Shown here: piece after piece, positions 40,801 to 64,000 of the stretch
Layout of the letters: the number at the start of each line of letters is the position of its first letter
How positions within the stretch are numbered: position 1 is the stretch's first letter
Assembly (NCBI GenBank): GCA_033819885.1
Contig: JAQYUZ010000027.1
Span: 62,001 to 126,000 of the forward strand
Reading direction: 5' to 3'
DNA length: 64,000 bases
DNA from: Microbotryomycetes sp. JL201
Lineage: Eukaryota; Basidiomycota; Microbotryomycetes
Translations under genes and position numbers: made by a program
The notes under the pieces: generated by a model
Databases searched by the model: none
The model's input: the letters and a program-made list of their open reading frames with translations, nothing else
What the model was told of the DNA's origin: nothing

Positions 40801-43800
40801 TTTCTTTCTCAGCGACATTGCCGTTCCTGCTGCGTTTCACACTTAGCTTGCCAGGCTTCGTCTGCTTTTGTTTTCGGAAAGCCCTGCCGCTAGCTTTCGG
40901 GTCCTTGTCGGACGCCTTCTGTCCTTCAGCGCCGGAGATTGGAGGCTTGACCGTCTTTGACGGGGCAAGCGTCATCACCGTTTTCGCGACCTGCAACGCC
41001 ATCGTTCATCAGCAAGACCTCTGAGCAAATCGCGCAATACCACAGCGACTCACTTTCATGATTTCAAAGAGGGGCTGCGTCTCGACGATTTCGCGTTTCT
41101 TGATGACCGCTCTGGCAAACATTTTATCTGCGACAGGACGGAATCAGTCTCCGCCTGCATCTGGCTCAACGGGACGGACGCACAGTATTCAAGCATGTTC
41201 TTGTGGCCGGCAACGGAATGCGTGCCTTCGATGCCTTCCATGACGGGGTTCAAGTCTGTTCGAGTAGCCACGTGATAATACTTTCCATTGTGACGACCCT
41301 CGTCGATCAAGACGGCGTCTTTAATTCCAGTCAAGTTCTGGATGTCGACTGGCTCGTCGCGATTGCCAATCGCACGCTGCATCGCGATCCAGTCCATATC
41401 GTCCATCTCGAGCGCGTACTTGCTCTCGTCCCAGTCTACAAGAGGCGCAAACAAGCAGTTCTCCGACTCGCCGTCTTTCAACTTAATCGGTCTCGACAAG
41501 GCTGACGTCCATATGCACCGAGTGTACGAGCTCAGCATCGCTCGCTGGTTTTCGTCGACCCTGATCGATCCTTCCAGCGGAACGATAGAAACGGTGGTTG
41601 GTGACGTGCCGGTGTACAGCTTGCATTCGAGGGTTGGTGGGAGTCGGGCACGTCCAAGTAACAGCAATGGTCGGTAAAGGCCTTCGTCGACCCGATGGAA
41701 ACCGTCCGGCTGACCTACGACTCGCAAGACGGCTCCGTACAGAGTTGCCGAGTCTTCAGTCCCTGCGATGCTTGAACTCCACACGTCGGCCAGCTTATGC
41801 TTGTACGAAACCTCTCGCTTGCGTGATCCAATTCGACGACCGCGTTCGTCGCGCACAATGGACTCTTTGAATGTGCGAATCGGCAAAAAGTGGTTGTCGA
41901 GAGCGTCAGCCGCCTTGAGTTCGCGAATGGCCATAATTGCAACCGCTCGTTTGGCAGCTTTGCTATTGCGTGCAACGACTGCAAATAGGAAACCCGTCAG
42001 CAAAAGCTGCCGACGTCGGGGAAACGGCTGACGGCCTGACCAGAGCCGACTTCTCGAACTTTGGCGTTCGTAGGCAGGACGACTTTGCATGCAAATCCCT
42101 CTTCAGTAGTAGCAAGTTCAAAATGAGGCTTGTTTGACGCAAACAAGTCGCTCGTCGGCAATGTCGCGCAGCTGATTTGTGATCCCAGTCAGTCAAACGC
42201 TACAGTATTGGCTCAGATCAGCACCAACTCACTATCTGTGCAAAAGGGACAGCGCAAAATGGGGCGTAATGTACGCTCTCGTCGTCTCGTCCGTCAAGGA
42301 TTCTTCTATCTCCAAATCGCCATCGTCGTCGTCTGGTTCTGCCTCGCCTCCCAGCGGTACCTCCGAGCCCGACTCTGACAGCATTTGGCCAATCTCTTTA
42401 TCGAACTGACTGATGCGCATTAACTTGCGGTGCTCTTCAAGGTTGTCTGTGCTGAACACGGTCAGTCGCGACCTTTCAGGCAGACCACCCCGTGAGCTGA
42501 CCTTCTTCGACGAACAAGAGATAGTGACTACAGGCTGCGCGAGCGCGACCTTTCGATTGCACGTACGATATGTGCGTGCTGCGAAAACGGGGTGGTCAGT
42601 GCGCCGTAGTCTGAGGAAAGCATGTGAAACTGACTCGTAGAGATCGTAACGAGCGACAAAGTTGCACGGCTGCACGAGACACCACTCAGTCCGGTGCTTC
42701 AATAGCCACGTGAGTCAGCACCAACCTGCACGTCGAGACCTTCTTCGACGACCGACGTCGCAATCAATAGATTCGTAGCGCCTTCCTTGAAAGCGTGCAA
42801 GATTGACGTCTGCCTCGCCCAAGCCATTTGTGATCCCCTACAGACCAAAAGACGTCAGCCCAAACCATCAATCGCGTCGCCAGTCAAAATGCTTACAAAA
42901 CACCGCTTGCACCGTTGCCGTGACCTGTGACGCAATCGACTTTGATCCAACTGAGCTCTTGTATGTAACCTGATAATTCCTTGATGATTTGAGCAATCAA
43001 GAGAGCGTCCATGCGCCGCTTCTACCATGCTTTGAACCGTCAAAACAGAACGGAGCGACGCGAAAGCGACAAACTTACGACAAAGACAATGCCGCAAAAG
43101 ATTGCAGCCGAAGGTGCGCAAGCGGCGAGCATCTCGATCAAGCGTTGCAGCTTTGGTGTCAGTCGGTCCAAGCTCAGAGTAGGAATGTGTCTGTCAATGC
43201 ACCTGTTTGACGTAAACAGCTGTGTCAGATGCAAGCTTCGAGTTGTTGCAGGCTGCGCCAACTCACTCCATCCAAAGAGGCCAGTCGACTAGCGAACGGA
43301 TGTTGTCGGTTTCGTCCTCGTCGGGAAATGTCGTTGACGCAATCTTTCCCTTCTCGGTTTTGCTGTGTGGCGCTTCACCCGGGGAGGTGACCATCTCAAC
43401 GTATTCTAGCTCTGGCTCGGTCGACGGGGGCGTTTGGTCACCTGAAGCGTTCATCTGTCCTGCCTGGGCAGTGACGGGCCCTTGCTCGTCATCCGGTTCA
43501 GAGACGGGTCCAGTGTTCTTGGAGGAGTCAGCTTCAGCCTCTGGCGCAGGGTTCTCGTCATTTTGTTCCTTTTTCGACGAGAAAATGTCCAGCGCGTCAT
43601 CCTTATCTTGCGATTGAACGTGTCGGTTCAGTGCGAGATCGACTGGTGCTTCCGACGAGTCGCGTGACGACGAAGACCAAGTCCGAAGCGGTTCTGCCGT
43701 TGTCGCCTCTCCCCTGCCCTTCTCCATGGCCTCTCTTTTGTCCTTCTCCTTGACCGGCACAACCTTGCTGGCCCTGTCACCTCTCTGCCTAACCTCTCCG

Positions 43801-46354
43801 CTCGCCGTCAACGTCCTCGCCGCCGCACGACCTCCACCAACGCCTCCCTCTGCCAACTCGTTCTCTCTCAAATCATTCCAAGGCATGTACCTGTCCTTGT
43901 ATCTCCTCAAAAACAAATGCCACATCAAATCGCAAGCGTCTGGTCCAAAATCTACCAAGGCCGTCTCTGCCGCTTTCAGATATTTTTGAAATGTATCTCT
44001 GGCGTCGGGCAATGTTTCGAGCTTGGCAATGGCGAGAATTTCTTCAGTGAGTTGAGTGTTTTGGTAGGCTACATGAAGCGATGAAAGCAAGTATCAGTCT
44101 GCCAAAACGACTTCATGGGTGGGCGAGAGGAGACTCACGAGGAGCTTTGTCGTAGAGAACGTGGAGGATCGTGGGACGCGCGACCATCTTGCGCAGCTCT
44201 TCGATTGTCTCTTTCGGTGCACTCAACAACCTGGCACCAGTCAACGTCTCGTAAGCGCTTGCCATGCAACAGCGACAACCGAGCGAGATGCAACGTACTT
44301 TGCGTCAAACAGCGTTTGCAAACGCCTAACTTCCTTCATGCCTTCGTTGCTGTTGACAAGAGACGCCGTCATGCCCAATACTTTCGGACGTTCCTCTGGA
44401 GGCGCCCTATTCAGGAAATGACGCAGAATCGAAGCGAACGGGCTGCGTGATCAATTAGATGGTGAGTCCTGGCAATGGTATTGCGGCCGAGCGTACGTAC
44501 TGGTTTGATTTAGCGTGGTGAGCTTCGTCAAATACGAGCAAAGAGATTTCGTCGACTCCAATGAAATCGTGCGCCAAAGAGTCGAGCAAGAGTTGCGCAG
44601 TCAGGCACAAGCAGCTGTGCCGTGCGCGCGTAGGTCAGCGCAAAAGCTGCGGCCTAGAGCATTCCAAGACGCTTACTCGAAATGCTCAAAGTTGTAACGC
44701 CACTCTTCGTCCGAGCACAAGTCAATGTTGAGCGCACCAAACACCTTGCCAACTCGTAGATTGGTGCTGCCAATCCCATCCAAAGGTCAATTTGACGATG
44801 CGGATATGCCACACGGACGAGAGTGACTCACGTGTGAGCGATGATCTTTGCCTGCTGATGTACAAGGGGCACCGAGTTTGTAATGAAAAATTGCATTCTC
44901 TTATTCTTGCCTTGCTTCATCCTCGGCACTTCGATTTGATTGTGCATCCATTCCATCAACAAGACGGCAATTAATGTCTTTCCACTGCCCGTCGGCAAGC
45001 AGGCAATGACGTTGCCCGCCTTTGCAGAATTGAGGATGGCAATTTGGTAAGATTTTGGAGTAATGCGCTCGGTCTCGTCTCTGTCGGCGTGTAAAACGTC
45101 GTCGTCGATTTCGACGAAATCATCTCTCCCGTCAATAGCTTTGCCGTCGCGACGAATTTTGAATCCGCTTATGTGTCTGATCTTTTTGGTCCGAGAGACG
45201 CCGTTGCTTGACTGCGTCGCATGTTCTTCTTGAGAAGGATTCACTTCGTCATCTTCACTGGCCGAACTCGAATCGTCGTCAAGTATTGAAAAGACTTTTG
45301 CCATGTGTTCTGACAATTTTTCGGGATCAAACACGCCCTCAAAAGTCGCCTGGCCGCCCGAGACGGGATTCAAGAGGACGGGCACGGCGGCATTGGCCAG
45401 TGTAGGCGAGAATGTGGATGCGGGATCGACTTTGTGCACGTCGACGTCGACGACAGTCCCGGCAGCGTCATTTGAAGCTCCCTCCTGAGCTTCAGTGCAT
45501 TCGAGTGCCGCTTGTTCCAGCGCCGAGCTTAACTCGATCGCGTGCGAGTCTTTCGACATCGGGAGCGGCTCTTCGTTTGCCTGTTTACCCGTATCCGGAC
45601 GCTCGTGCGCTGTCTTGAGTGTAGCGTCTGTTTCTGCAAGAACGACGGCTCGGGCACTCGTGCCCAGTGCCAGGATTGCAAACTCGTCTGCGTCAGTGGC
45701 AGAGACGTCGAGCGGCGTTGTCACAAGAGCCGCATTCATATCGTGCGTGGTCGAGTCGATGTAAGTGACAATGAGGTCTCCGTCATCGCTGACGGAACAG
45801 CAGTCGCTGCTGTCATCGTCCGAGAGCATCATCGAGACGACCATACCGGCTGCTTGTTGCTGGTCGAGTGAGTCTGCGGGGCAGTCAAAGTCGAGCGACT
45901 TGTCGGAGACTCCGTTCACTGCCGTGACTGTTGACGAAGTGCGCGAATGCGTACACGAGTCGCCGTTGTCCTCGCTGTGGCCAGGCGAGTGCGTTGAAGG
46001 AGAGGCTGCTACAACGCCGAGGCTGGATCTGACGACGTCTGCTGCCGTCGAAGCGTGGGTCAAATTCAAGTGCTGGTCTGTGACTGCGTCCTGAGCGAGC
46101 CTGCGAGGGATTGACGGCCGTGTCGCACGGTCGAACGGCTTTAGCAGCGTCGGCTGGGCCGTCGTCAAGCGTCTGAGCCTGATCTCTCGGTCACGCAGCG
46201 CAAGTGACAAGCTCAAGTGACGCTCCTCTGTCGAGTCGGTCTGACGAGGCTCAACGTGCTGAGTGTGGCGCTTGAGTGGCGGTGCTTGGGCCTGCTTGAC
46301 CCGGCCAAGAGGCTCGATTCGTTTGCTGCTCGCGTCTTCTGGTGGCTGGCCCAT
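37820..46354 (-). CDS. DCL: Dicer-like ribonuclease III (RNA interference)
   Basis: Minus-strand gene, ATG 46354 to stop 37820, many short introns. Order: a ~430-residue acidic, Ser/Thr-rich N-terminal extension; helicase with SYQIAILNSAKAGN, Walker A CLPTGSGKT (~45.0 kb) and DEAHHA (~44.53 kb); a second helicase lobe; a dimerisation/PAZ region (41.1-42.1 kb, e.g. YYHVATRTDLNP and RRIGSRKREVSYKHKLADVW); a ~250-residue Ala/Thr/Lys-rich insert (40.2-41.0 kb); RNase IIIa with EDYERLEILGDAALK and KTIADVVEALMGAAYE; RNase IIIb with FQRLEWLGDSV and APKAVADIVE then SLFGAILLD; and a dsRBD with ALVTTANPKTAKRLACALAL. The metal-binding Glu/Asp residues of both RNase III sites are present, so the enzyme should cut double-stranded RNA into small RNAs. 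No Argonaute or RdRP gene is in the window. Confidence 0.93.
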
Positions 46355-49132: not shown

Positions 49133-52100
49133 ATGCTGTGGCACTCTTGGGTTCTGCTCGGGGTTGTTGCAGTCACTCAGCTTGCGACGGTCGCCACTAG
49201 CGCGGCCGTCGTTCCAGCGCCCAAGTCCATCGCGCAAACCAAGGCTGAACGCGGGATCAAATTGTGCTTTGGCACCGTAGCATTGAGCGGCAACTCTTGC
49301 GTCAAGACTTGTCCTGTCGGAACATACTTTAATTTGAGCCTGTGTGAGTCCGTTCACGTCGCTGGCTCGCTGGGGAAAGAGGTCCAACGCGACTCTTACT
49401 GATGGACGAATTCAACAGTGGGCAACACATGCAAGGTTTCGCCAAAGTGTACCACTAGCCAATATCTCGCTGACGACGGTGAGTCACCTGCCGCATATAC
49501 GCTGCTCCAGATTGTACGTGTCTGAGATACAATCATACGGGGCATCGTAGGCCGCAAGTGTTTCGAGTGCGACGACAAATTTGACAACGCTCGGACGTGC
49601 AACAGCACGGTCATCACGAACTGCAAGCCTACATTCACGCTCAAAGACAACTCTTGCCAGTGCATCGACTTGCCGGTCCTCGCTTCAGACGGTAAGACAG
49701 CATGAGCGGCTTGACATTGATGCGAAAGAATGCTCATAGTAACCTGATGTGTAGGCAAGACATGCGTCACTTGCGACAAACGTTTCGACAATTCGGTCAC
49801 GTGCGACTCGAAAGGTCCAAGGACTTGCTTCAGCAACTTGACCGTTCGAGGTGGACAATGTCAATGCTCTGACAGCCAGTACATGTCTACCAAGTCCGGC
49901 GGTGAGTCTTCGGGAGGCTTTCAGTGATGCTCCATGGCAAGCTAACTAACCGAGACGTTTGCAGACGCTAATCCGACTTGCTTTGAATGCAACGATTTGT
50001 TCCCAAACAGCGCGACTTGCAATCAAGATCAGCTACAGACCTGTCTCCCGACCTTCCAGAAGGTTGTTGCCCAAAGACAACGTCGTTCAGCTGCCTGTGC
50101 TCGAAGGGTCAATTTGTCTCCAATGGTAAGCTTCGAAAGGCCGCGACAAGGCGATACGTGGCGTTGACACTAAAAGGATCCAGCTGCTTGCTTGTCTTGT
50201 GAAGCTGCGTACCCCTTGTCTACCGCTTGCGATGAAAAGGCACCTTCGGCTTGTCAAGGTTCGCTACAAGTCGTCGACGGCAAGTGCGGATGTCAAGAGG
50301 GCTCCTTCGTTCAAAAGAGTGGCAAGTCTGAGCGGAAGATACACATCATGACACGACAATCCTGATTATTGAATGTATACTCAGGCAACAAATACAGCTG
50401 CGCGAGTTGTTCAAAGTTCGGCGTAAACGTAAAGTCATGCACCAGTGTAGCAGTCACAGCATGCAACAACTCTTTCAGCATTTCCAGCGACAAAAGATCA
50501 TGCGTTTGCCCTTCGCCAGAGGTTGTTGGCCGCGATGGTCGATGCACAGACGTCTTGATATGTGCAGGAGGGTCACTACTCATCAGTGGTAAGTGTACTT
50601 GTCCTGCCGGATCATTCAGCAAAGACGGTGAGTAACCTCTGGCAAGATCAGTCTGTGAAACTAAACGTTACCCGGATGACAGAGCCAGTTACGTCTTGTA
50701 CTCTGTGCTCAACAGCGTTCAAGTACGCCAAGACATGCGACGCCAATGTCGTTGTCGACTGTCAAGACGGTTTCGAGAAAGCCAGCGACGGCAAATCTTG
50801 TGTTTGCTCAAGTCCGTCAACCATTCAAGGCGAAAAGTGCGTCAAACCGCTTTCCTGTTCGGGCGGATCGTACTTGTCCGATGGGAAATGCACTTGTCCA
50901 ACAGGCTCTTTCAGCAAAGACGGTGAGCAGTCTTGCCACACCATACCAAATTTGGTTGCTGACCTTTTTCTCTGACCTCGTTTCCAGATCCAGTCACATC
51001 TTGCACCAAGTGCGCCACCGCGTATCCAAATTCTGTCGACTGCGACGCCAACGGAGTCTCGATCTGCCCTCAAGGTTTCCAGAATGCGGCAGACGGCCAA
51101 TCATGTGTTTGTGTAGACGGCACCGAATTGCAAGATGGTGAATGCGTCCCTCTCACGCAAGGTGATTGTCCGTCTCGTGCTGTTCTCCTCAACGGCAAGT
51201 GCATCTGCACTGATGGAACGTTTAGTCCGACGGGTATGTGGGAACAAGGCGCACATATCGAGGCATGATGCAGGATCTGATCTTCGACCTGCATGTAGAC
51301 CCGATCACCTCTTGTCAGACTTGCTCGGACAAGTACCCGTTTTCATCGACGTGCAATCGCGACAAGGTCTTGTCTTGCCCCGACAACTTTGACAAGGCCG
51401 CCGACGAATTGTCTTGCGTGTGCAGCAAACGAAATACCTTATCAGGCGACACTTGTATCAGGGCGGCGAGCATCTGTCCACCAGACTCGAAGAGCGTTAA
51501 TGGCACGTGCCAATGCGACGACGGTTTCTTTGCAAAACCAGGCAAGTCTCGCGCCCTCTTTCTGCTCAGCAAGCTGGTCGCGCAAGAGCTGACGGAAATT
51601 ATTTCCCAGACGATGGCAACGGATTTTTCTGTGGCGCTTGCACTTACTTCTGGCCGTATGCTGCAACATGCAACAAGGACAAGCCTTTGAGTTGCAAATC
51701 TGGTTTCTTGCTCGAAGGCAACGATTGTACGTGCGCAACTCCAAGAAAGTTGGATGGAGAAAATTGCGTGGCGACGGAAGAAAAGTGTGAAGACGTCAGT
51801 CTTGGTTCGACGCTTGTAGGAGACTTTTGTCAATGTCCCGAAGGACAATTCTTTCCCGAAGGTGAGGCTGCGCGTTCCCTTGCTCCAGCGACCAACTCGA
51901 GAACTGAATTGGGTTCAATGACAGCGGGCCGTGGGTATTGTGCATACTGCTCGGGATTCAAAATGCTTGCGGCGACGTGCGACAGGACGACAGTGTTCAC
52001 GTGCCAAGACGGTTACATTGTTTCAGAAGATGCCAAGTCTTGTGTCTGCGCGGCTGGACAATTTTACGACTGGATGTGTGCGTTCCCTTGCCTCCCGTGG

Positions 52101-54156
52101 AGAACTCGCAAAGCACGGTGCTGACTTGAGAATCTGGCTTCAGCGGGTTGCACGAACTGTCAAACAAAGTTTGGCGATCACGTGAAAACTTGCGAAGCGA
52201 ATGGCAATAATGTGCTCACCTGTGACGCCGGGTTTGAACCCAGTGATAAACAAGATTCCTGCGTACCGGTTTGTAAAGCTGGCGACGTCAGGGTCGGAAA
52301 CGAATGCCTGACGCCGCCTCCGTCTTGCGACGGTGACTTGGTCGTCGTTGGCGCGTACTGCGTATGCCCGTCTGGGTCGGTTCTCAAGCAGGGATCGACG
52401 AGTTTGTGCGAGACTTGTTCGACGAGGTTTGGTTCGTTGGCAAAGACGTGCGACAGCAATGGCATTCAAACTTGCGTCGAGAACTACAAGAACGATGGTG
52501 GCACTTGCGTGTGCGATGATAATCATGTTTCAGACGGCCAAGGTGGATGCACGACGTGTGCAGAAGGATCTCTCATCATGAACGGCCAATGCCGATGCGA
52601 CAAGGGTTACGTGCCAGGCGACGCCCCAAACACTTGCAAGTCGTGCGCGCAGCTGTATCCGAATTCGGTCATGTGTGACGAGAAAGGTCCCTACGAGTGT
52701 TTGGAAGGTTACGGCGTCATCAACAACCAATGCACGCAATGTCCTGCCAACGCCATCGCTTGCAAGGGAGACTCCATCGTATGCGCCAAAGGATTCGCAT
52801 TGTCTTCCGATCAAAAGTCATGCTTGGACTGCAAGGCGGATCCGAAACATGACAGTTGTCCTATCGAATGTCCGGTCAATGCGGTCCCGAGCAAGGACGA
52901 TCCAAACAAGTGCGTGTGTGATGCCAATAGCGTAATGAACGCGAAAGGTGCGTCAGCGAGAGTGGGTGAAGCGCAGGTTCCGTCGTATTGACGAGGCAAT
53001 TGTACACAGGCGAATGTATTGCTTGCCCTCCGGATGCGTTCGCGGACAAGGGAGGATGCACGTGTTACAGACCAGATTTTGGCATGAATGACCAAGGCGC
53101 GTGCGTTTCCTGTCCAGTCATGTATCCCAACTCGGTCTACTGCAACAGCAAAGGTCCGACGCAGTGCGATTCCAATTACGGCCTCGACTCTGATCCCAAG
53201 GACGCCACTCGAACCGTTTGTCAAAAATGTCCGCTCGGGGCGACGTCTTGTTCGTATGGAAAAGTGACTTGTGACACGAGCACGTACATACCGTCTCTTG
53301 ACGGCAAGTCGTGTGTCGACTGCAAGGCGACTCCAGCCCGGCTAGAGTGCAACCCTCTAGGCTGTCCTCCGAACCAAACGAACGGACCGGATGGATCTTG
53401 CGTCGCATGCTCTCAATTATTCCCAGGATCGACCATTTGCGATCGAGCGGGTGTTCATCAATGTCTCGCGGGTTTGATCATGTCTCCTGGTCGGCAATCG
53501 TGCGCTTGTCCAAGGTCGCAGTACTTGCTGATGGATTCGGGGATGCTTACGTGCAAAGCTTGTAAAGAGACGTTCGGCGACAATGTTTACTCGTGTACAG
53601 CCGATGGAATCTCAAAGTGTATTGACACGTTCAAGCTTGGAGGAGACGGCAAGTCTTGTTCATGCGATGCGAACAATCTTCTGTTGCAGGTAGCTGGCGC
53701 GGGTGGTGAGGAATCTTGGTTTGACATGTCGGTGACTACAGAATGCGAGCTGACCCGTGGACTTTGCGGGTTTTCAGGATACGGTGCTCGTTGCATCGCT
53801 TGTCCTGGCAACATGGTGTCGAAAGGGTACAACGGAGCTCGAGTTTGCGCTTGTCCTGATGGCACGGTCAACTCTGGTCAGTCTCGAAAAGTTCATTCGA
53901 GCGAGTGTGGGCGTGCATGCTCGATGCTTTGTTGCTGTCGCCACTTTCTGTTCTCGCCTAATGACTAACGTCGTTCCGTTGATCAGGCTCGTCTTCTCAA
54001 TGTGCATCTTGCGAGACCGTGTTTCCGCGAGCCGTATCGTGCGAGATGATCGGCTCGTCCGAAGTGCCTGGTTACGGAGGGTGGCGTCCTTCACAGTGCG
54101 CGGACGGATACGCCGTCAGTGCTGATGGTGATTCGTGCCAAGTTGTCCTGTTGTGA
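49133..54156 (+). CDS. Secreted cysteine-rich multi-module repeat protein, 16 exons
   Basis: ATG 49133, stop 54154-54156. Exons: 49133-49343, 49419-49478, 49551-49691, 49755-49901, 49965-50125, 50184-50321, 50385-50627, 50683-50922, 50988-51233, 51299-51541, 51610-51861, 51925-~52071, 52144-52947, 53010-53705, 53778-53876, 53987-54156; about 1330 residues. Signal peptide (WVLLGVVAVTQLATVATSAA), then about a dozen modules with paired cysteines (CxxC), an aromatic segment with NS-x-x-C, a C-x-x-G-F strand and a C-x-C end, often closing CPxGSFSKDG. Nearly every intron is phase 1 and splits a Gly/Glu/Asp codon at the module end. Introns 50322-50384 and 51542-51609 are GC-AG. Two oddities: exon 5 is 161 nt, so its Cys-rich start and end are in different frames, and exon 12 lacks an in-frame GT donor. 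No transmembrane helix or GPI signal seen. Function unknown; cell-wall or surface role inferred. Confidence 0.78.
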
Positions 54157-54348
54157 TTGGGTGTGACTCTTGGATTTGGGTGCAAGATTGTGTAGCTCGC
54201 TCTCGGTGTGTTTCAAGGTCTGTCTCGGGCCGATTCAGAAATGAAAACACGCGCTTGTATGAAAGGATGTTTTCCTGATCGATTGATTTGGGAGGGATGT
54301 GCTGCATGTCCTGAATGTGTCTGTCCGTCAGGGATGGTGAATTCAGTC

Positions 54349-55071
54349 ATGACGACGAGCCGAGCCGAGTCGAGTCTGACGCTGCGCCAACACTCGTTGG
54401 CCTCTGTGCGCCTCATGAGTCGACATGTCGACGACGGCGGGCCAGCGTGTGAACCGATGACAGCTGAAGGACGCTCAAGCGAGTCGACGAGTCGCAAACA
54501 GCCCGCCCGGCGAGCAGCAGCGCCGTCAGAGTCGTCGTCAAGCGCCGTCGCCGCAGTCAAACTGGCCTATGACGCCGACGAAGACGACATGCACGACTCG
54601 CATACACACGGCAGTCTCAGCGATGACGATGACGACGATGACGACGACTTTCAGGTCGAGGATCTGCTGTGGGCCGCCCAGGTGAGCACAACCGAAGAGA
54701 GGCACGTGCGCACGGCCATCCGCACCGCTGCAGCACAACAAACACGGGCTAAGCCCACTCGGATCGAGCACCGCAAGCTGTGCAGTTGCTTCTCGAGTCA
54801 GACTGGCACCCGCAGCCTCTCGTCTACGCCGAAGCACGCCAAGCAAACGCAGGCGAACGACTTGCGAGTGACAGCCGAGCGAGTTGCACCAGACATTACA
54901 GGCGCACACGCTGACTCGCACTCTCAGATGGACTTGATCGGTCACAGGCACGCATCGGCTATACAAAAACTACAGCATGCAGTCGCCTTGGGCTCATCAG
55001 CCGCATGCGCCACACTCGGCAAGCAAGTCGATCCTCTTCCCTCCTCTTCTCGACTCTTGCATGCACACTGA
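54349..55071 (+). CDS. Acidic hypothetical protein
   Basis: Open frame from ATG 54349, 240 residues, single exon. Contains an Asp run (SLSDDDDDDDDDFQVEDLLW) flanked by Ser-rich sequence, and a basic, Gln/Ala-rich second half (RTAAAQQTRAKPTRIEHRK, then CSCFSSQTGTRSL). No known family. The same frame is open upstream to 54208, where it reads CMKGCFPDRLIWEGCAAC followed by PECVCPSG, resembling a cysteine module of the preceding gene. It may be a genuine small gene or an open frame in a decayed module region. Confidence 0.4.
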   Translation: MTTSRAESSLTLRQHSLASVRLMSRHVDDGGPACEPMTAEGRSSESTSRKQPARRAAAPSESSSSAVAAVKLAYDADEDDMHDSHTHGSLSDDDDDDDDDFQVEDLLWAAQVSTTEERHVRTAIRTAAAQQTRAKPTRIEHRKLCSCFSSQTGTRSLSSTPKHAKQTQANDLRVTAERVAPDITGAHADSHSQMDLIGHRHASAIQKLQHAVALGSSAACATLGKQVDPLPSSSRLLHAH

Positions 55072-55173
55072 CTCGGCTCGACTCGGGTCCTCTCGTGCAG
55101 CCTTCTGTCGCATGGTTTCAGAGCCGGAGGCGAACATGCCGCCTGCGTTTCGCCGCCAACGCGTTCGGCGACC

Positions 55174-57841
55174 ATGCCAGATCCGATCGCGCACGCACAC
55201 GCCACGACAACAACAAAACAGTCATTAGTGGCGACAGATGGTTCACTCAAAAGGCCGACACCGTTGAGAACGGCAACAATGCCACCAACGCAATCGGCAA
55301 GCACTTCGCACCAAGACTCACTCGCTGCCGCAGAACTGTTTGCGACAGGGCTCGAGATTGAACTGGGCAAACTAATCCAGGCTGATGCAAATGGCATGTT
55401 AGACGACGAGCAGCCAATGTATTCCGACGAGGAAGGCTCAGAGGGCAAATACTTTGGTCTCGAACGTGCGCTCGACCTCGTCGTCGGAGTGAGTAGACAG
55501 GTCCCGCCAGAATCAAGAGGATCGCAGGCTTACGCTAATGACACCTTTTCAGCTCACCGACAGCTTCCGTTTCGGCATCCTTGTCCCTCCGCCTGCCCAC
55601 GAGCATCAGTCAAACGGCCAGCTGTCGCTCGCCGAAGAGCTGTGGTCCAAAGGCGCCATCCTGGCCCATCAAGTCTTGGCACACCCATCCGTCACTCTCA
55701 CTCAACCCGTTTTAACGTCACTATCGTCGAGCGCCAGCTCTCCCCGACCGCGGTCCTTGTCTCGATCACTGTCTCGCTCGTACGCTCACCCATCCACAAA
55801 CTTGCCCGCGCCACAAATGTCGTCGCCTCACCCTCATCTATCGGGCGAAACGAGACTACAATTGACAATCAATGTACACTTGCTGTACCTGTTGGCTTTA
55901 CACGTTTGGCCAACCGACCAGAAGCGAGCAGAAGACTTTTGGAAAGAGCTCGTCAGACTAGGCTCGAAAGGCGTCGGTACGAAAGAAGGAGAAGAGATGG
56001 TTGAACGTGCCAAGAGGAGGATAGACAACTTGCACAGAGACGGTGGACCAGACGAAAGCTGGCACACGGCGAAAGCTAGAGGTCGTGCTCAACGAGCGGC
56101 GAGGAAACAACAGGGCGACAGAGCTCAGACGGACGAGTCGTTGTCGTTCGAAAGGTCGACAGGTGACGCGCTGCAAGAAATGAAAGAAGAGATTGAACGC
56201 GACAAACAAGAGGCTGCCCGAGAAAGAGCTCAGGCTGTGCTGGACGTCAAGGGCAAGGGGCGAGCCTATGAAGGCGACCTAGAGGACTCGACCGCCGAGC
56301 ATTCAAGATTCGGCTCGTCATCGTCTGCCGTGACGATCAAGCCTTCGTCGGGCACAGACAACGCTCGCGCGTCAACAAGTCCTACGCCGGTAGCGCCGTT
56401 GTCTCGCACTCCCCGGCCCTCCAAGTTCCATTTCGGGGCCGACGAGACAAGTCACGAGTACCCTTCGCCGCCAACGACACCACCTTCCACTTCGTCTCCT
56501 GTTTCCGCCAAAGAACCTCCAGCAGAATCACTGGCACCAAATTTGTTGCGCGAGCAGACGACTGAACCCGACTCGTATTTTTCGTCGCAAATAGACCACC
56601 AGGACGCAACCAAGACGAGTTTGACAAGACTACCCCGTAATCGAACAAGAGCCTCGTCTGTCGCTTCTTCGACAGCGTCGTGCCGAGTGCCAGTCTGGAC
56701 CATGAAACAGTTGACGAGGACAAGGAGCAGTGCGAGCGTTGCGACGTTGCCTCCCGATTTTGGCTCTTCGTCTCTGTCAACTGACCGTTCATGGACTGCC
56801 AGTTCGAGTCGAGGTGTATTGTCGCAAGCCGTCGTGGCAGACTTTGCGCCGCTGCGAGGAAAGGAGAGCTTGACTAAGACGAGGTCAAGGTCTGTTTCGT
56901 CAGCAAGTCAGCGAACACCTAGTGCTTCAGATGAACCGGGCTCGAAAAGCTGGAGCTCGACGTGGAGGGCCAAGTTCTCCACACTTCGAGACAAGCCTGC
57001 CCAATTCTTCGCGCCGAATGATCGGACAAACGTTGGCAGAGGTGACGCGTCAGATTTGTTGCGCCAAGTTCTTGTACGCGACCAGACGGCAGCCATGTAC
57101 GGAGGTATCAATTGGGACTTTGACGAGCGCGATGAATGCGAGTCTGGAATTGACGGCGAAGGCGAAGACGACGACCCTAATCGCGCCAAGTTTGATGACG
57201 ACACGTCACTACTTTTGCCCCCTGAACTCGAGACGCCCTCTGTGCAAGTCAACGGTGCAACTCAGGAGACGGGAAGGTCGAGACGACCGAGCAACTCGAC
57301 AGCGTCTGTCAACGGACTGCCCGTCACTGGCCGAAAAGCCTCGCGCAAGCATGCCCTTCGACGAGTCGGCTCGAGCTTGTCTCAACGATCATTCTTTGAT
57401 CCAACGACGTGCGAATCGAGATGGACGCCACCACCGCCTCCGCCACCGACACTGCCCAACTCTGACCCAGCAGAATCTGTCGGACTCTTGTCACCGACTT
57501 CAGCCGCAAATGCGCCTCAGTCCCACTCTGCACCCCCACTTAGTCGACCACAGAGTCGATTGACCTTGCCCGTCAATCCACGTTTACAACAACAGACGAC
57601 GGAAGCTGGCATGGACCCTCTCCTACTAGATCTCGAACGAAAATCTCGTGTCGGAGTCAAAACAGTGTGTGCAAATTGTGGCAAAAAAGGATTGAATTAT
57701 CCCAAGTCGGCAAAAGGGGAGACGTTTTGTTCGAGAGAATGCAGGGTCAAATCGAGGAAGGGGCGAAGCGGGAATCCGATGACGGAAGGTGTCGGTGGAG
57801 GGAGGCAAGAGATGGTTGTCAAAGTGGATGCAGGTGCTTGA
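55174..57841 (+). CDS. Large Ser-rich uncharacterised protein with C-terminal Cys zinc-finger motif
   Basis: Exon 1 55174-55488, intron 55489-55552 (GTGAGT/CAG), exon 2 55553-57841; about 867 residues. A shorter start at ATG 55279 is possible. The N-terminal ~220 residues look folded: AAAELFATGLEIELGKLIQ, SFRFGILVPPPAHEHQ, LWSKGAILAHQVLAH, and a helical block LQLTINVHLLYLLALHVWPT with FWKELVRLGSKGVG. The middle is disordered and Ser/Thr/Pro-rich. The end carries CANCGKKGLNYPKS and FCSRECRVKSRKG, spacing CxxC...CxxxC, consistent with a small zinc site. I do not recognise a named family. Confidence 0.7.
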
Positions 57842-58857
57842 TCAGAGTGTTGTGCATGTGAGCTTGATAGTGTACAGGCTTGAGCTATCGAGTGAAAGTG
57901 CAATAATCGGGTCCTCCAACGAGACAGAGGAGCATGCGGAGTCACTGATTGTTGGTTGCTCACAAGGGGACTTCACTGAACACTTTGTCGCGTCGCGCAC
58001 ACTGCAGCTGCTTGTGAGATTTGCTGACGAGTGTTTGGCAGGGCGGGATGAGCTAATCAGAGATTCTGTAGCTTTCAGCTGCACACCTCACACGCCGTTC
58101 CTTCTCCTTGCAGTTTGATTCTTGTCTCGCCATTGCCGAGTACATCTTGCCGCAAGAATTTGATCCCAAGTCTGAGATCGCCTGCGTTTGAACTTATTTG
58201 GCTGGTCGGGCTCTGAGCCAGGCACACATAGTTCCCGCGCGCTGATCGCATGTGTATACGTGACAGGATCGCATGAGCGGGAGGAGCCTGCTCTAAATTT
58301 GTGTGAGTCGCTGTTCCAGACCTGACGAGATGCCCTCAATTAGTTGCGTTTCGTTCCTGTCCGCCGCAACTCCGAGGTACACGTTCTTCACTATAAAGAC
58401 CGCAACCGGGAACAGTCGTCAAAGAGTCTTAATCCAGTTGATGAAACAGGTATCATGGCTGCCTTGCATCGATTTTGTGCCATGTGCCGTCGCACCGGAT
58501 CAAAGCCTCAGCCCGCCGGACAATCTTACAGGCCTACGCACGTAGAATCCCGCTCCGTTTCATTTCAAGTACGGGACCCTGTGCCTGGCGCATCATACCG
58601 CCTGTCCAAAGGCGAGAGATTCTATTAATAAACTCAGCCGCCCGAAAATCGCATGAATACCTGAACTGACACCCCTTCATAGACTCGGCAACCCCCATAG
58701 ATAGTTTGACGATCCCTCGACATTGTTCCTAGGTCGCTGACTCGTGGTATTACGATCCCGCTCCCGACCGAGCTGGTCGTCAGAAGTGCCAACTTTTCTG
58801 CTTTCGCTCTCTTGCTAACCACAATTTGATTGAAGATCCGAACTGGTTATTGGCAAC
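57842..58857. other. Intergenic stretch of about 1 kb
   Basis: Upstream of the first cysteine-rich gene of the related pair. No gene, RNA or repeat recognised; all frames are short. Confidence 0.5.
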
Positions 58858-60702
58858 ATGGGCATGCACGGATTCGCCGCCTTTGCCACGGTATTCGGGC
58901 TGATCGCAAACTCGCACGCAAGCCCAACGGGACCGCGCTCACATCTCGACATGATTGCTCGCTCAATGGCGCTCGAGAAACGCACATTCGACTTTGATTG
59001 GCTCAACAAAGCGCAGCAGAAGATCTGTTTGGCCCAACCCGCTTTGCAAGACAGTGAGGACATATATTGGACAATCTCGCGGTGGCGAGTGAAGCGCAGG
59101 CCACAGCATATTGACACAATTTACGTACAGCCATTGTTTGCGTGCCTTGCAAGATTCTCGATCGTGACGCGTCCGCTTGCACAGGCTTTCTCAACATCAA
59201 AGTGGCTGCGTGCAAGACGCTTTCGTTCTATCAGAACCGATGCTTGAAATCATGCCCTAGCGGATATTACATCAACTCGACCGGCACTAGTGAGCTCGTG
59301 TGGATACATGCGGAAGATTTGTGCCTCATCACTCATCATTTGCCCCTTGCTTTTTCCAGACGGTAAGGTGTGCACGGTGATCCCAACCTGCTCAAAGACG
59401 CAATACTTGACAGCAGACCGTAAGCCTCCCTCTGCGTTGGCACACGAACAACTAGCGCGCTGATTCCATTCTCGTGCATCATGCAGAATCTACCTGCGTT
59501 GATTGCGCGGCAACACACCCCAACGCAGACCAGTGCACCGCAGCTTCTGTCACGGCCTGCAAACCGACATTCACTCAAACCGGCATTACTTGCGCGTGCA
59601 CATCAAGTCAGCTTCTGGCCGCCGATGGTGAGCACGAGAACCTGTCGATTCTTTCGTGACAATTCGCTTAGGACTTGCGTTTGTGAAAAGGTGGCTCGTG
59701 CCAGGCGTGTCCGCCTAACGCGTCATGCAATGGCGGATCCAAGTTTACGTGCAACACAGGCTTCTGGTACAATTCTACGACGAATGCTTGCGACCCGATT
59801 GCGACTTGCGACCCGACAAGCTCGTAGCCTGCGTACAATAGCGCTACTAAGACTGAAAAGCTTCGCTAAATACATTGTGCTGAGGATCGGATCTTATGTA
59901 GCCAACACGTGCGGACCCTGCGTAGACAGCTCAGGCAATCCTTCCTTGTTCTCCGATGGCGTTTGCACCGCCTGCCCAACCAACGGGGTGTGCGACGGTG
60001 CGGCCACCTTCACATGCGCCTCGGGCTCGATCGGTCCCACAGTTTCTGGACTATGCGTGCCTCCAGAAGGCAATCGAGTGATCATCCGCGACGGCGACCT
60101 CGGTGACCAGACAAGATTTGGTCCTTCGCTTGACCCAAACTCGCCTTTGTACATTGCAACTGTCCTGGTCCAGGACAATTACGTAGTTCCAGGCTCTTTG
60201 AGCGACTATATCAGTTCCGGCTCAGCCCAGGCACCTCTCGGTGGAAATCGAAGAACTTCTGTGCGTGCAGGTCATGCCATTGAGCTGATACATCGACTGA
60301 CGGACTTGCGAATCCAGAACAACTTTAATCTTTTGCCGTTCACGGATGACATGAGCTGGGTTGATGCAAGCGGTGGACAAGTGAGCGATCAAGCCTCCGT
60401 GTGGATCACAAGTCGCTGACTATGTCTTGTCGCGCCGTAAGACGCCAGCAGGCTGCACTCCGGTTGTAGGAGGAGTTGAAACTGGTAACACAATCTACCA
60501 CGGGCGTGCAATCTTCAATGGTGCAGTCACGCTCGGTAAATGCGGCGGTTATCTGGTGAGCGAGACGCGACGGCAAATCTGCCCAACGAGCACGACTGAC
60601 GAGCTGGAGCAGGCTCAATTCGGCGGAACATTCTTTGCTCCAGGCGCGCAAGAGGTCAGCGCCAGTAGCGGCTATCAAATGTTGTGCTGGAACTTGCGTT
60701 GA
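58858..60702 (+). CDS. Secreted cysteine-rich protein with C-terminal DM9-like domain (copy 1)
   Basis: ATG 58858, stop 60700-60702. Exons: 58858-59053, 59185-59289, 59360-59419, 59487-59627, 59691-?, ?-60260, 60318-60380, 60442-60555, 60613-60702. Signal peptide (GFAAFATVFGLIANSHA), then a Kex2-like site LEKR|TFDFDWL, Cys modules (KSCPSGYY, CSKTQYLTAD, CVDCAATHPNADQC, CKPTFTQTGITCAC), a segment with LGDQTRFGPSLDPNSPLYIA, and a DM9-like end: MSWVDASGGQ|TPAGCTPVVGG, IYHGRAIF, VTLGKCGGYL, MLCWNLR. Between exons 5 and 6 the site matching copy 2's donor has lost GT and an in-frame TAG lies at 59825-59827. A substitute splice (donor at 59824, acceptor ending 59929) keeps the frame but drops two cysteines. 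The gene may be active by altered splicing or be decaying. Confidence 0.72.
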
Positions 60703-62030
60703 TGGTCGAGGCGGAGCTTTTGGCTTTTGCTTCTCCGTTCTGTAATTGACGTCAGAGATTTCTTTCTTCCGGCATGTTTTCAGGCTTTCGCTCAAAGCAC
60801 TTCAAGACGGTTCCTTGGGCTCGTTTGTAAATATGAGTTTGGGTCAACGAAGAATGAAAGAATGTATGGCCTGCGTGTCGAGCGATCTCGCTGCTCTGTC
60901 CAGATTCCGTGCGCTTGGGCCGTTTTATGTCATTAGGTCATGCCGCACTCGATTCTCACTTTACTTGAACTTGTCTCTCAATCGGACTCGCCGTCGTTCG
61001 AAGTCGAGTCAATTTCCTACAAAAAGCGAAGTACGTGATGAAAGATTTGTTGCTCGGAGTCGATCGAGCCGCGTTTCGGCGGGTTGGACTGTGCTCGGGA
61101 TACAGCAGTTTCAGAATTTTAAAGAGCATAAGAAGAATAGTGCGTGCTGGGTCGCTGAATCTTGTCCGCAAAGGCAGAGAACAAGGTCGAGAATGGTGGA
61201 GGATAGTTCTGCATTGTCTCGTTCGACACTCACAGCACTTGCCCACTTTTCGGTAATCCAAGCTAAAGCCGTATTGGTTTGGCATGCTTTTGGCAAATCT
61301 CGGGAGCGGTGCGTCATCGATTCGCTGTTGAGGAATGAATGGTCCGGATCCATGCGCCACGTCTCGTCTACCGGAGTTACCTGAATATCTCAATGCATGG
61401 GATTTGTAGCCAAGCGCCAGGTGCGGGAGGCTTCAGACTCTGAGTTCAAGATTGCTGGGTCCCCTGAGACTTTCCGGTTCAGAGGCGCGCTCGCAAACAG
61501 CAGCTGAGTCAGTCGACAGGGCTGGCGCTATACTCGCACCGTTTCATTCGCAGCCAGGAGTATAGTGGGCTGCATTCTGTGAGCTCTAATTCAACCCGAT
61601 ACACATGTCTTGAGGTTTGATTCTTGTGCCGAGTCTCTCCTTGGCAGCCATTCCCGGCGGGCCACGCGAGATCCCGCGCCCTTATTACTTGATCCGCAGC
61701 TTTAACGAACGCTTTCTGGAAGTCAGTCGATGAATCGGCTGCCAAACATCTTCTCATTTTTCTCGGCACTTGCCTGTTCCAGAGCATTCCTACCCACTTG
61801 CCGAAGTCATGTTCGATGATCAGAGAAGAACGCCGGAAGCTGACCCTTCGCTGAGCACCTTCGGGAGCTGAGCCTCTTCGAGCGTTCCTGCAATATCAAT
61901 ACTCAAGTCGCAGAGATCTCCATTCTGCCGCTTGTGCGCGCTTTCTCTCTCTCTCACACACACACTCTCTCTCTCCTTTCTTTCTTTCCTCAATTCTTTT
62001 CTTCCACTCGAGCTTTCCGCAGCTGGAATC
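60703..62030. other. Intergenic stretch of about 1.3 kb between the two related genes
   Basis: No module exon of the family is recognisable here. The last 100 bp are CT/CA-rich and probably form the leader of copy 2. Confidence 0.5.
61941..62008. repeat. CT/CA microsatellite and pyrimidine tract
   Basis: Runs of CT, then CA, then CT, merging into a pyrimidine-rich segment that ends about 20 bp before the ATG at 62031. Pyrimidine tracts just before the start are common in highly expressed fungal promoters; here it may mark the transcription start region of copy 2. Confidence 0.75.
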
Positions 62031-64000
62031 ATGATCACGCATGCTCTCATCGTCTTCGCTACCCTCAGTGGGATGATCACAGACTCACATGCAAGCCCAA
62101 CGGGGCAGCGCTCACATCTCGACGTGACTGCTCGCTCCATCGCGCTCGAAAAGCGCACATTCGACTTTGGATGGCTCAACAGAGCTCAGCAGAAGATATG
62201 TCTGGCTCAGCCCGCTTTGCAAGACTGTAGGTGCCTTTTTCACGGTTCATGCTGTTCTGGTCACCGGCTTATTCTATTCACATGCGAATAGCCATCGTTT
62301 GCGTGCCGTGCAAGACTTTCGACCGTGACGCGTCGGTTGCGCAGGCTTTCTCAATACCCAAGTGGCTGCGTGCAAGACACTTTCGCTTTACCAGAACCGT
62401 TGCTCAAAGTCGTGCCCTAAGGGCTACTACAGCAACTCGTCTGAGAAAAGTGAGTTCTTACCGATAGATGTCTTGGAACTCGACCAGGCCTGATCACCTT
62501 GCCGCATCCTTTTTCAGACGGCAGGGTATGTACGGTCACCCCGACATGTTCAAAAACACAATATTTGACCGCCGACTGTGAGACGACATGTCTACTCATG
62601 ACATGACTAGCCCGCTGACTGGCAGCTGCCGCAGAATCTGCCTGCGTCGACTGCGCGGCAACGTACGCCAACTCGGACCAGTGCACTGCAACTTCTGTCA
62701 CGGCGTGCAAACCGACATTCACTCAATCCGGCAATACTTGCGCGTGCACGTCATCTGAGCTGCTGTCTGCCAATGGTGAGCCGGAAAGCGTGTCTGCTAT
62801 CCTCTCGCCTCACTCATGATGTGTACACGAGCTCAGGTGCCACATGTCAGACGTGTCCATCGAATGCGTCATGCAATGGCGGAGCCGAGTTCACTTGCAA
62901 GACGGGCTTCTGGTTCAATTCAAAGACCACAGCATGCGACATGGTTGTGAAATGCGACGCCACTAGCTCGACTCCTGCATACAATGACGCGAGTGAGTCG
63001 GGGCGGCGCTAAAAATGGAGTTTGAAAACGCTGCCTGACCCTGAATTCTCCGACCTGCGTAGCCAATACTTGCGGATCTTGCACTGACAGCTCAGGCAAC
63101 CCTTCCTTGTTCTATGGTGGCGCCTGCATTCCTTGCCCGGCAAATGGATTGTGCGATGGCTCTGCTACGCTCAAGTGCGACTCGAACTACTTGTCCAACT
63201 CGAACACAAATGCTTGTGACCCGGTTGCGACGTGTGACTCCACCAGCTCGTCGCCGTTTTACGACAGTGCCAGTGAGTCTTCACGAGGCCCTGCTTGCGA
63301 GCTCCAGCTGACTGTTGGGAACGTGCGTAGCCAATACTTGCGGCCCATGCACTGACAGCTCAGGCAACCCTTCGTTGTTCTCTGGTGGCGCCTGCATCGC
63401 GTGCCCAACTAATGCGGAGTGTGATGGTTCCGCCGCAGTCGCATGCAACTCGGACACGATTGGTCCCACGATCTCTGGCCTTTGCGTATCACCGTATGGC
63501 AACCGAGTGGCGATCCGCAACGGCGTTCTTGGCGACCAGACCCGGTTCGGTCCGTCGCTTGATCCAGATTCGCCTTTGTACATTGCCACCCTCATCCTTG
63601 GCGGCGATCTCTATGTACCCGGCTCCTTGAGTGATTCGATCAGCTCCGGTTCGGCCGAGGCACCCTATGGCGGGGCCCGACAAACTTCCGTGCGTCGCAA
63701 ACTGGCAATCGTACCTCGACGTGATGCTAAACATTCTGCTTGAAAATCAGAACAACTTTGATCTTCTCCCGTTCACAAGCGACATGAGATGGGTCGATGC
63801 CACCCGTGGACAGGTGAGCGACTCTTGCAGTGGAGCCTGGATGCCAATAACCATTCTTGCGGCCCGTCAGACGCCAGCAGGCTGCATTCCCGTCGTTGGC
63901 GGGCAAGAAGGCTACGACGTTGTTTATCATGGCCGCAAGATCTACGACAACCGAGTCACGCTCGGAAAATGCGGCGCATACCTCGTGAGCTAGGTGTAAG
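62031..64000 (+). CDS. Secreted cysteine-rich protein with C-terminal DM9-like domain (copy 2, cut by window edge)
   Basis: ATG 62031. Exons: 62031-62226, 62345-62449, 62518-62577, 62635-62775, 62837-62992, 63063-63272, 63331-63689, 63751-63813, 63871-63984, then a donor GTGAGC at 63985 running off the edge. Exon lengths 196, 105, 60, 141, 359, 63 and 114 equal those of copy 1 where comparable. Signal peptide, LEKR Kex2-like site, Cys modules (KSCPKGYYSNSSEK, CVDCAATYANSDQC, TCQTCPSNASCNGG), LGDQTRFGPSLDPDSPLYIA, and the DM9-like part MRWVDATRGQ|TPAGCIPVVGG, VYHGRKIY, VTLGKCGAYL. It has one more Cys module (exon 6, 210 nt) than copy 1. Reading through the final donor would meet TAG 63991-63993, but copy 1 splices at the same point, so the gene should continue beyond the window. 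Confidence 0.75.

Follow-up and report, generated by a model that had tools for sequence, protein, structure and literature searches.

We examined a 64,000-nucleotide stretch of contig JAQYUZ010000027.1 from the basidiomycete Microbotryomycetes sp. JL201 (the window, taken at its full length), in which three genes near the end, here called G1, G2 and G3, look like a small family of cysteine-rich modular proteins that are predicted to be secreted. The reading we prefer, with a probability of roughly 0.45, is that they encode a secreted, disulfide-rich modular family in which the G2 and G3 proteins would form a stalk with a mannose-binding DM9 domain at its tip. This reading is based on the gene anatomy, the intron phases, the cysteine pattern, a match to DM9, a lysine that has been kept and purifying selection between G2 and G3. 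Secretion, processing, sugar binding and the role itself are inferred. The family would have grown by duplication and recombination of exon-sized modules at phase 1 introns. Behind a common leader (a hydrophobic N-terminus, a first module, a 60-nucleotide (nt) exon and a module containing CKPTF) it would take two forms: in G1 a long row of modules with six or ten cysteines, and in G2 and G3 a short row of cysteine modules of another kind, with DM9 behind it. The modules of G2 and G3 would most likely constitute a disulfide-rich stalk, freed when the chain is cut after a conserved Lys-Arg. The DM9 tip may bind glycans rich in mannose, either on the mannoprotein wall of the producer itself or on a partner cell. 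Such a protein would coat or bridge surfaces, and G1 could supply a structural or coat partner lacking the sugar tip.

An earlier note, made from the letters of this DNA, had described a layout common to the three genes, and the rebuilt gene models (Table 1) recover a hydrophobic N-terminus in each (highest 11-residue hydropathy mean of 2.31 in G1, 2.29 in G2 and 2.31 in G3), a first module with KTCP in G1 and KSCP in G2 and G3, a 60-nt exon with a C-x-x-x-QYL segment, and after it a module with CKPTF and C-x-C. The same note held the exon lengths to be identical. This is true of the 60-nt exon in all three genes and of a 141-nt exon in G1 and G2, but in G3 the 141-nt reading of the CKPTF exon creates a TAA at the joint (T + AA), and the sole open joint found gives 150 nt. 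The leaders of G1 and G2 are homologous (29 of 73 residues identical, E 7e-16, in one single comparison). G2 and G3 share their exon order, save for one additional exon in G3, and their first exons are identical at 48 of 65 residues, with a Lys-Arg at the equivalent place in both that we take to be a putative Kex2-type site. Within G1, 14 of the 15 introns measure 55-75 nt and the remaining one 110 nt; two of them (50322-50384 and 51542-51609) are GC-AG introns in the model, both beginning GCAAGT. The inner exons of this gene are multiples of three, except for exon 5 (161 nt). No further copies were seen in the window, where all 69 tblastn matches fall within 49-64 kb, and the three proteins had no match in NCBIfam.

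What surprises most about the locus is its phase 1 anatomy. In our test of intron phase, the frames were fixed by the cysteine codons flanking each gap, and all open donor-acceptor pairs enclosing an intron of 45-130 nt were considered, the donor patterns admitted being our own choice. The 24 gaps covered were 14 of the 15 in G1, four in G2 and six in G3; not counted were the gap between G1 exons 5 and 6, where the frame slips, the one behind exon 5 of G2, which has lost its donor, and the introns of the tails. Phase 1 was possible at every one of the 24 gaps and was the sole option at 20, phase 0 being possible as well at the other four. Solutions of the form GTRAG...YAG existed at 16 gaps, and in those only phase 1 was allowed. 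The phase 1 borders are forced by the reading frames rather than chosen. If an intron is assumed to be in phase 1 with a probability of 0.3 to 0.4, the chance of finding this phase at 14 of 14 gaps in G1 is 5e-8 to 3e-6. Module duplication by means of symmetric exons, as the earlier note had proposed, is well supported by these counts. Its placing of phase 1 introns at module ends stands for the 24 gaps but does not extend to the whole locus: the intron inside the tail is in phase 0 in G2 and lies at the same position in G3, and exons 13 and 14 of G1 each contain several modules, showing that one exon is not always one module.

The modules themselves are best seen in G1, where exons 3, 4 and 6-12 share the spacing C-x2-C-x9-C-x7-C-x(10-12)-C-x-C, exons 7-11 carry four additional cysteines, and exons 15 and 16 hold partial modules. 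A relaxed six-cysteine pattern, composed after inspection of the exons and applied to 11 exons of G1 with one each of G2 and G3, was present in all 13; in 2,000 shuffles of the residues it appeared on average in 0.12 and at most in two of the 13. No Pfam family exceeded its cut-off in G1, and DM9 was not found there. The nearest families were cEGF (19.5 bits, cut-off 26.6) and DUF5874 (22.0 bits, cut-off 27.1). Membership of an EGF family was rejected, as the cEGF matches (19.5, 19.6, 19.0 and 16.2 bits) stayed below 26.6 and other EGF families scored weaker still. An AlphaFold2 model of the ten-cysteine module, computed from an alignment of seven G1 stretches, reached a predicted local distance difference test score (pLDDT) of 76.9 and a predicted template modeling score of 0.54. 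A fold search with this model gave 172 matches at E 10 or lower, of which none reached E 0.001; the nearest folds were the furin repeat of R-spondin and the EGF modules of factor Xa, at E 0.48 or worse. A search of solved structures with the G1 array gave no match up to E 1.

Exons 5 and 6 of G3 matched MSC (the Man1-Src1p C-terminal domain, PF09402) at 40.3 bits against a cut-off of 29.7, the best stretch covering profile positions 23-77 (55 of 337), a cysteine-rich segment. This likeness exceeds cysteine spacing, because none of four shuffles of these exons that held the cysteines in place produced an MSC match. The G2 counterparts scored 9.7 and 10.4 bits, below the cut-off. G3 was rejected as a member of MSC, since the remainder of the 337-position domain is absent. 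The earlier statement that the proteins as a whole match no named family still holds, although parts now do: the tails correspond to DM9 (Pfam PF11901, also DUF3421) and two G3 modules to the MSC segment.

Of all the parts of the locus, the DM9 tail is of most use, as it would turn a vague surface role into one that can be tested through candidate mannose binding. Against a curated cut-off of 26.2 bits, the C-terminal part of G2 scored 36.5 bits and the G3 piece 32.6 bits; shorter tail pieces gave 28.0 and 23.5 bits. The G2 tail lost its DM9 match in all three shuffled controls and in the one reversal. The solved chains closest to the G2 tail were four distinct sequences of the oyster protein CGL1 (listed as Natterin-3), at E 9.7e-5 to 8.2e-4 with a putative further intron removed and at E 0.0022 to 0.017 with it kept. 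CGL1 contacts mannose through Asp22, Lys43, Glu59 and residues of its second repeat, as given in PMC4932603, and according to PMC5712788 the substitutions D22A and K43A abolish mannose binding. The lysine of a GKCG motif in both fungal tails aligns with Lys43, and this lysine and its surroundings are identical between G2 and G3 although synonymous divergence (dS) for the exon is 1.60. Of the CGL1 contacts, only Lys43 and Asp22 could be placed in the alignment. As DM9 is known from animal lectins that bind mannose, the G2 and G3 proteins may recognize sugars at cell surfaces. The role suggested earlier, at the surface, as an adhesin or in host contact, is still presumptive, and mannose binding is its concrete candidate activity. 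Fungal DM9 as such is already known: the Figure 6 legend of PMC5712788 shows DM9 proteins in Fungi, and the text of PMC4932603 names fungi among the species with natterin-family sequences. Searches for relatives of the tail in viral contigs and plasmids, and one in prokaryotic genome contigs with the piece of G3 that spans modules and tail, confirmed none and, given what these collections contain, are uninformative about fungi.

The putative further intron deserves mention as an observation in its own right. A donor-like GTGAGC site is conserved inside the DM9 part of both genes (60556-60612 in G2 and 63985-64000 in G3) and would open a possible phase 0 intron, the removal of which barely alters the score of the G2 tail alone (38.0 bits with the intron removed and 37.5 without removal).

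Between G2 and G3, pooled over nine segments, dS was 0.90, nonsynonymous divergence (dN) 0.17 and dN/dS 0.19. The comparison excluded the exon 2 extension, the surroundings of the slip in G3, the additional exon of that gene, and the part of G2 exon 5 that begins with the stop; synonymous sites were saturated in one segment, the 60-nt exon. The ratio was 0.16-0.18 in the three tail segments, and 0.17-0.18 in those that lie past the slip in G3. Exons of the two genes are 66-87% identical and introns 44-56%. At the level of sequence, these values show purifying selection between G2 and G3.

Lesions are nevertheless found in all three genes of the assembled sequence. Exon 5 of G1 (49965-50125) slips in frame relative to the module pattern; an alternative acceptor at 50176 would restore a single open frame of 1336 amino acids (aa), with a phase 0 joint. 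Exon 5 of G2 contains an in-frame TAG at 59825-59827 and has no GT at the place aligned with the G3 donor. This exon can be skipped in frame because both its borders are in phase 1; a joint from exon 4 (at 59627) to 59902 keeps the frame, with GCC as the junction codon. Exon 2 of G3 has a slip if it starts at 62292 and none if it starts at 62345. The extension between these starts is identical to G2 at 46 of 53 positions, with one gap, and was therefore probably coding in both genes before the G3 slip. Another frame slip occurs near 63690 in the G3 tail. This tail also has a TAG at 63991, which an intron would remove if the GTGAGC at 63985, conserved in G2, served as its donor. General sequence error is not favored as the cause, since a SEN1 gene in the same window has no evident frame slip (one gene, judged by eye), which speaks against generally poor sequence.

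The lesions could mean that G2 and G3 are decaying copies, the working member being G1 or another copy somewhere else in the genome, and the family serving as an extracellular structural or matrix protein for which the lectin tail is irrelevant here. The in-frame stop and lost donor of G2 and the slips of G3 agree with this, as does the SEN1 frame, which by eye has no evident slip. However, dN/dS of 0.19 overall, and of 0.17-0.18 in the tail segments past the slip, means that decay, if real, is recent; the damaged G2 exon is one whose loss by skipping leaves the frame intact; and G1, the supposed working copy, has a slip of its own. We hold decay of G2 and G3 to be possible, though less probable than the lectin reading.

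A different account of the same anatomy is that a fungal extracellular family has arisen by genuine class 1-1 exon shuffling, with exon exchange continuing, the leader having been joined at a phase 1 intron to an EGF-like array in G1 or to MSC-like modules and a DM9 tip in G2 and G3. The additional exon of G3 is relevant here. Its first 63 nt are identical to the next exon at 58 positions, and its last 84 nt are identical to exon 5 at 53, so that it looks like a chimera of its neighbors. Under the shuffling account this chimera would be exon exchange within the family, and symmetric exons would allow a damaged module to be skipped with the tip retained. However, the last 120 nt of the extra exon are closer to exon 5 of G2 (81 of 120) than to exon 5 of G3 (74 of 120), and a gain in G3 is therefore indistinguishable from a loss in G2 or from gene conversion. 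Duplication within one family is also a weaker case than shuffling between unrelated genes, toward which the shared leader with its two different continuations only hints. We consider this account possible and would not put it ahead of a lectin-tipped family. Why exon shuffling should be confined to Metazoa is a question raised in a 2021 review (PMC8001218), and exon and domain borders are described as coinciding in some fungi (PMC6547436). In titles and abstract openings, which included few subscription papers, neither a combination of DM9 with cysteine-rich modules nor an exon array with phase 1 borders in a secreted protein of a fungus was found among the matches listed. The individual parts are known; their combination and the phase 1 anatomy are unusual. 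A fungal class 1-1 array, if true, would be a useful counter-example to animal-only exon shuffling, and the locus offers a small system in which to test whether extracellular proteins have evolved by exon modules outside animals as well. It would also add a candidate mannose lectin with DM9, a domain so far studied chiefly in animals.

Several results, the lesions among them, weigh against the interpretation of G2 and G3 as stalks with a mannose-binding tip. Taken singly, the DM9 exons score 17.4 and 13.3 bits, short of the cut-off, and with the second tail exon of G2 alone a carbohydrate kinase (E 0.013) ranks above CGL1 (E at least 0.08). Asp22 of CGL1 aligns with a Glu, in a gapped stretch, and the Glu is also present in G3. 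The binding sites of CGL1 are placed between its two DM9 repeats (PMC4932603, PMC5712788), and no second repeat was detected by Pfam in the stretch preceding DM9 in either gene. This stretch, 73% identical between G2 and G3, had no DM9 likeness in a profile comparison, CGL1 was absent from its solved-structure matches, and its structural model failed (pLDDT 30.8). A possible worn first repeat, read there by eye, is supported by no profile, structure or model result. The proteins might thus be secreted adhesive or coat proteins in which DM9 does not bind mannose, acting instead as a structural or dimerizing domain or on another ligand. The Glu in place of Asp22 and the undetected second repeat fit such a role, and the function of DM9 in natterins is itself given as unknown in PMC3110756; the unchanged lysine and GKCG surroundings at a dS of 1.60 do not sit easily with it, and we judge it unlikely.

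Table 1. Gene models of the locus and their exons, rebuilt from splice signals and reading frames (positions in the window)
Feature	Position	Strand	Description
G1	49133-54156	+	16 exons; hydrophobic N-terminus, then array of six- and ten-cysteine modules; basis: splice signals, reading frames
G1 exons 1-6	49133-49343, 49419-49478, 49551-49691, 49755-49901, 49965-50125, 50184-50321	+	C-x-x-x-QYL in 49419-49478
G1 exons 7-12	50385-50627, 50683-50922, 50988-51233, 51299-51541, 51610-51861, 51925-52077	+	
G1 exons 13-16	52144-52947, 53010-53705, 53778-53876, 53987-54156	+	
G2	58858-60702	+	
G2 leader part	58858..59627	+	Exons 58858-59053, 59131-59289, 59360-59419 (60 nt, C-x-x-x-QYL), 59487-59627 (141 nt)
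G2 exon 5	59691..59850	+	Module homologous to G3 exon 5; in-frame TAG; aligned donor place without GT
G2 tail	59902..60702	+	Exons 59902-60380, 60442-60702: cysteine module, conserved stretch without family match, DM9 match
G3	62031 to window end	+	Truncated by window end
G3 leader part and first MSC-like module	62031..62992	+	Ends with exon 62837-62992
G3 leader exons	62031-62226, 62345-62449 (or from 62292, with frame slip), 62518-62577 (60 nt), 62626-62775 (150 nt)	+	C-x-x-x-QYL in 62518-62577
G3 extra exon	63063..63272	+	210 nt
G3 tail	63331..64000	+	Exon 63331-63813 (frame slip near 63690); exon from 63871 with DM9 match

Other genes were noted in the window. The SEN1-type helicase gene (3266 to about 8900, + strand) has SEN1_N and SEN1_barrel matches and a helicase part, and its best solved relatives are an RNA helicase-like protein and Helicase SEN1. 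A possible Dicer-like gene on the - strand (41056-42102 and 44828-46354) matched Dicer dimerisation at 23.9 bits (cut-off 23.7), with a DEAD match below its cut-off. Together with the short introns, the SEN1 gene and this Dicer dimerisation match make a fungal host likely. Between G1 and G2 lies an open frame of 782 aa (55493-57841, + strand) that had no Pfam match; its C-terminal end, CANCGK...CSRECR, resembles a small zinc-binding motif by eye.

Finally, we compared the locus with known systems. Like the class 1-1 extracellular modules of animals (EGF-like and furin-like), the family places disulfide-rich modules between phase 1 introns; unlike them, G1 finds its fold matches only above E 0.001 (best 0.48) and leaves cEGF under its cut-off. 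Exons 5 and 6 of G3 resemble the cysteine-rich segment of the MSC domain, whereas the whole domain is not present in G3. The closest known system for the G2 and G3 tails is the oyster mannose lectin CGL1 (CgDM9CP-1), which they resemble in DM9 score, in nearest solved structure and in Lys43. As it has been described, CGL1 consists of two DM9 repeats and nothing more, whereas G2 and G3 carry one detected repeat behind a cysteine-rich array, with Glu in place of Asp22.

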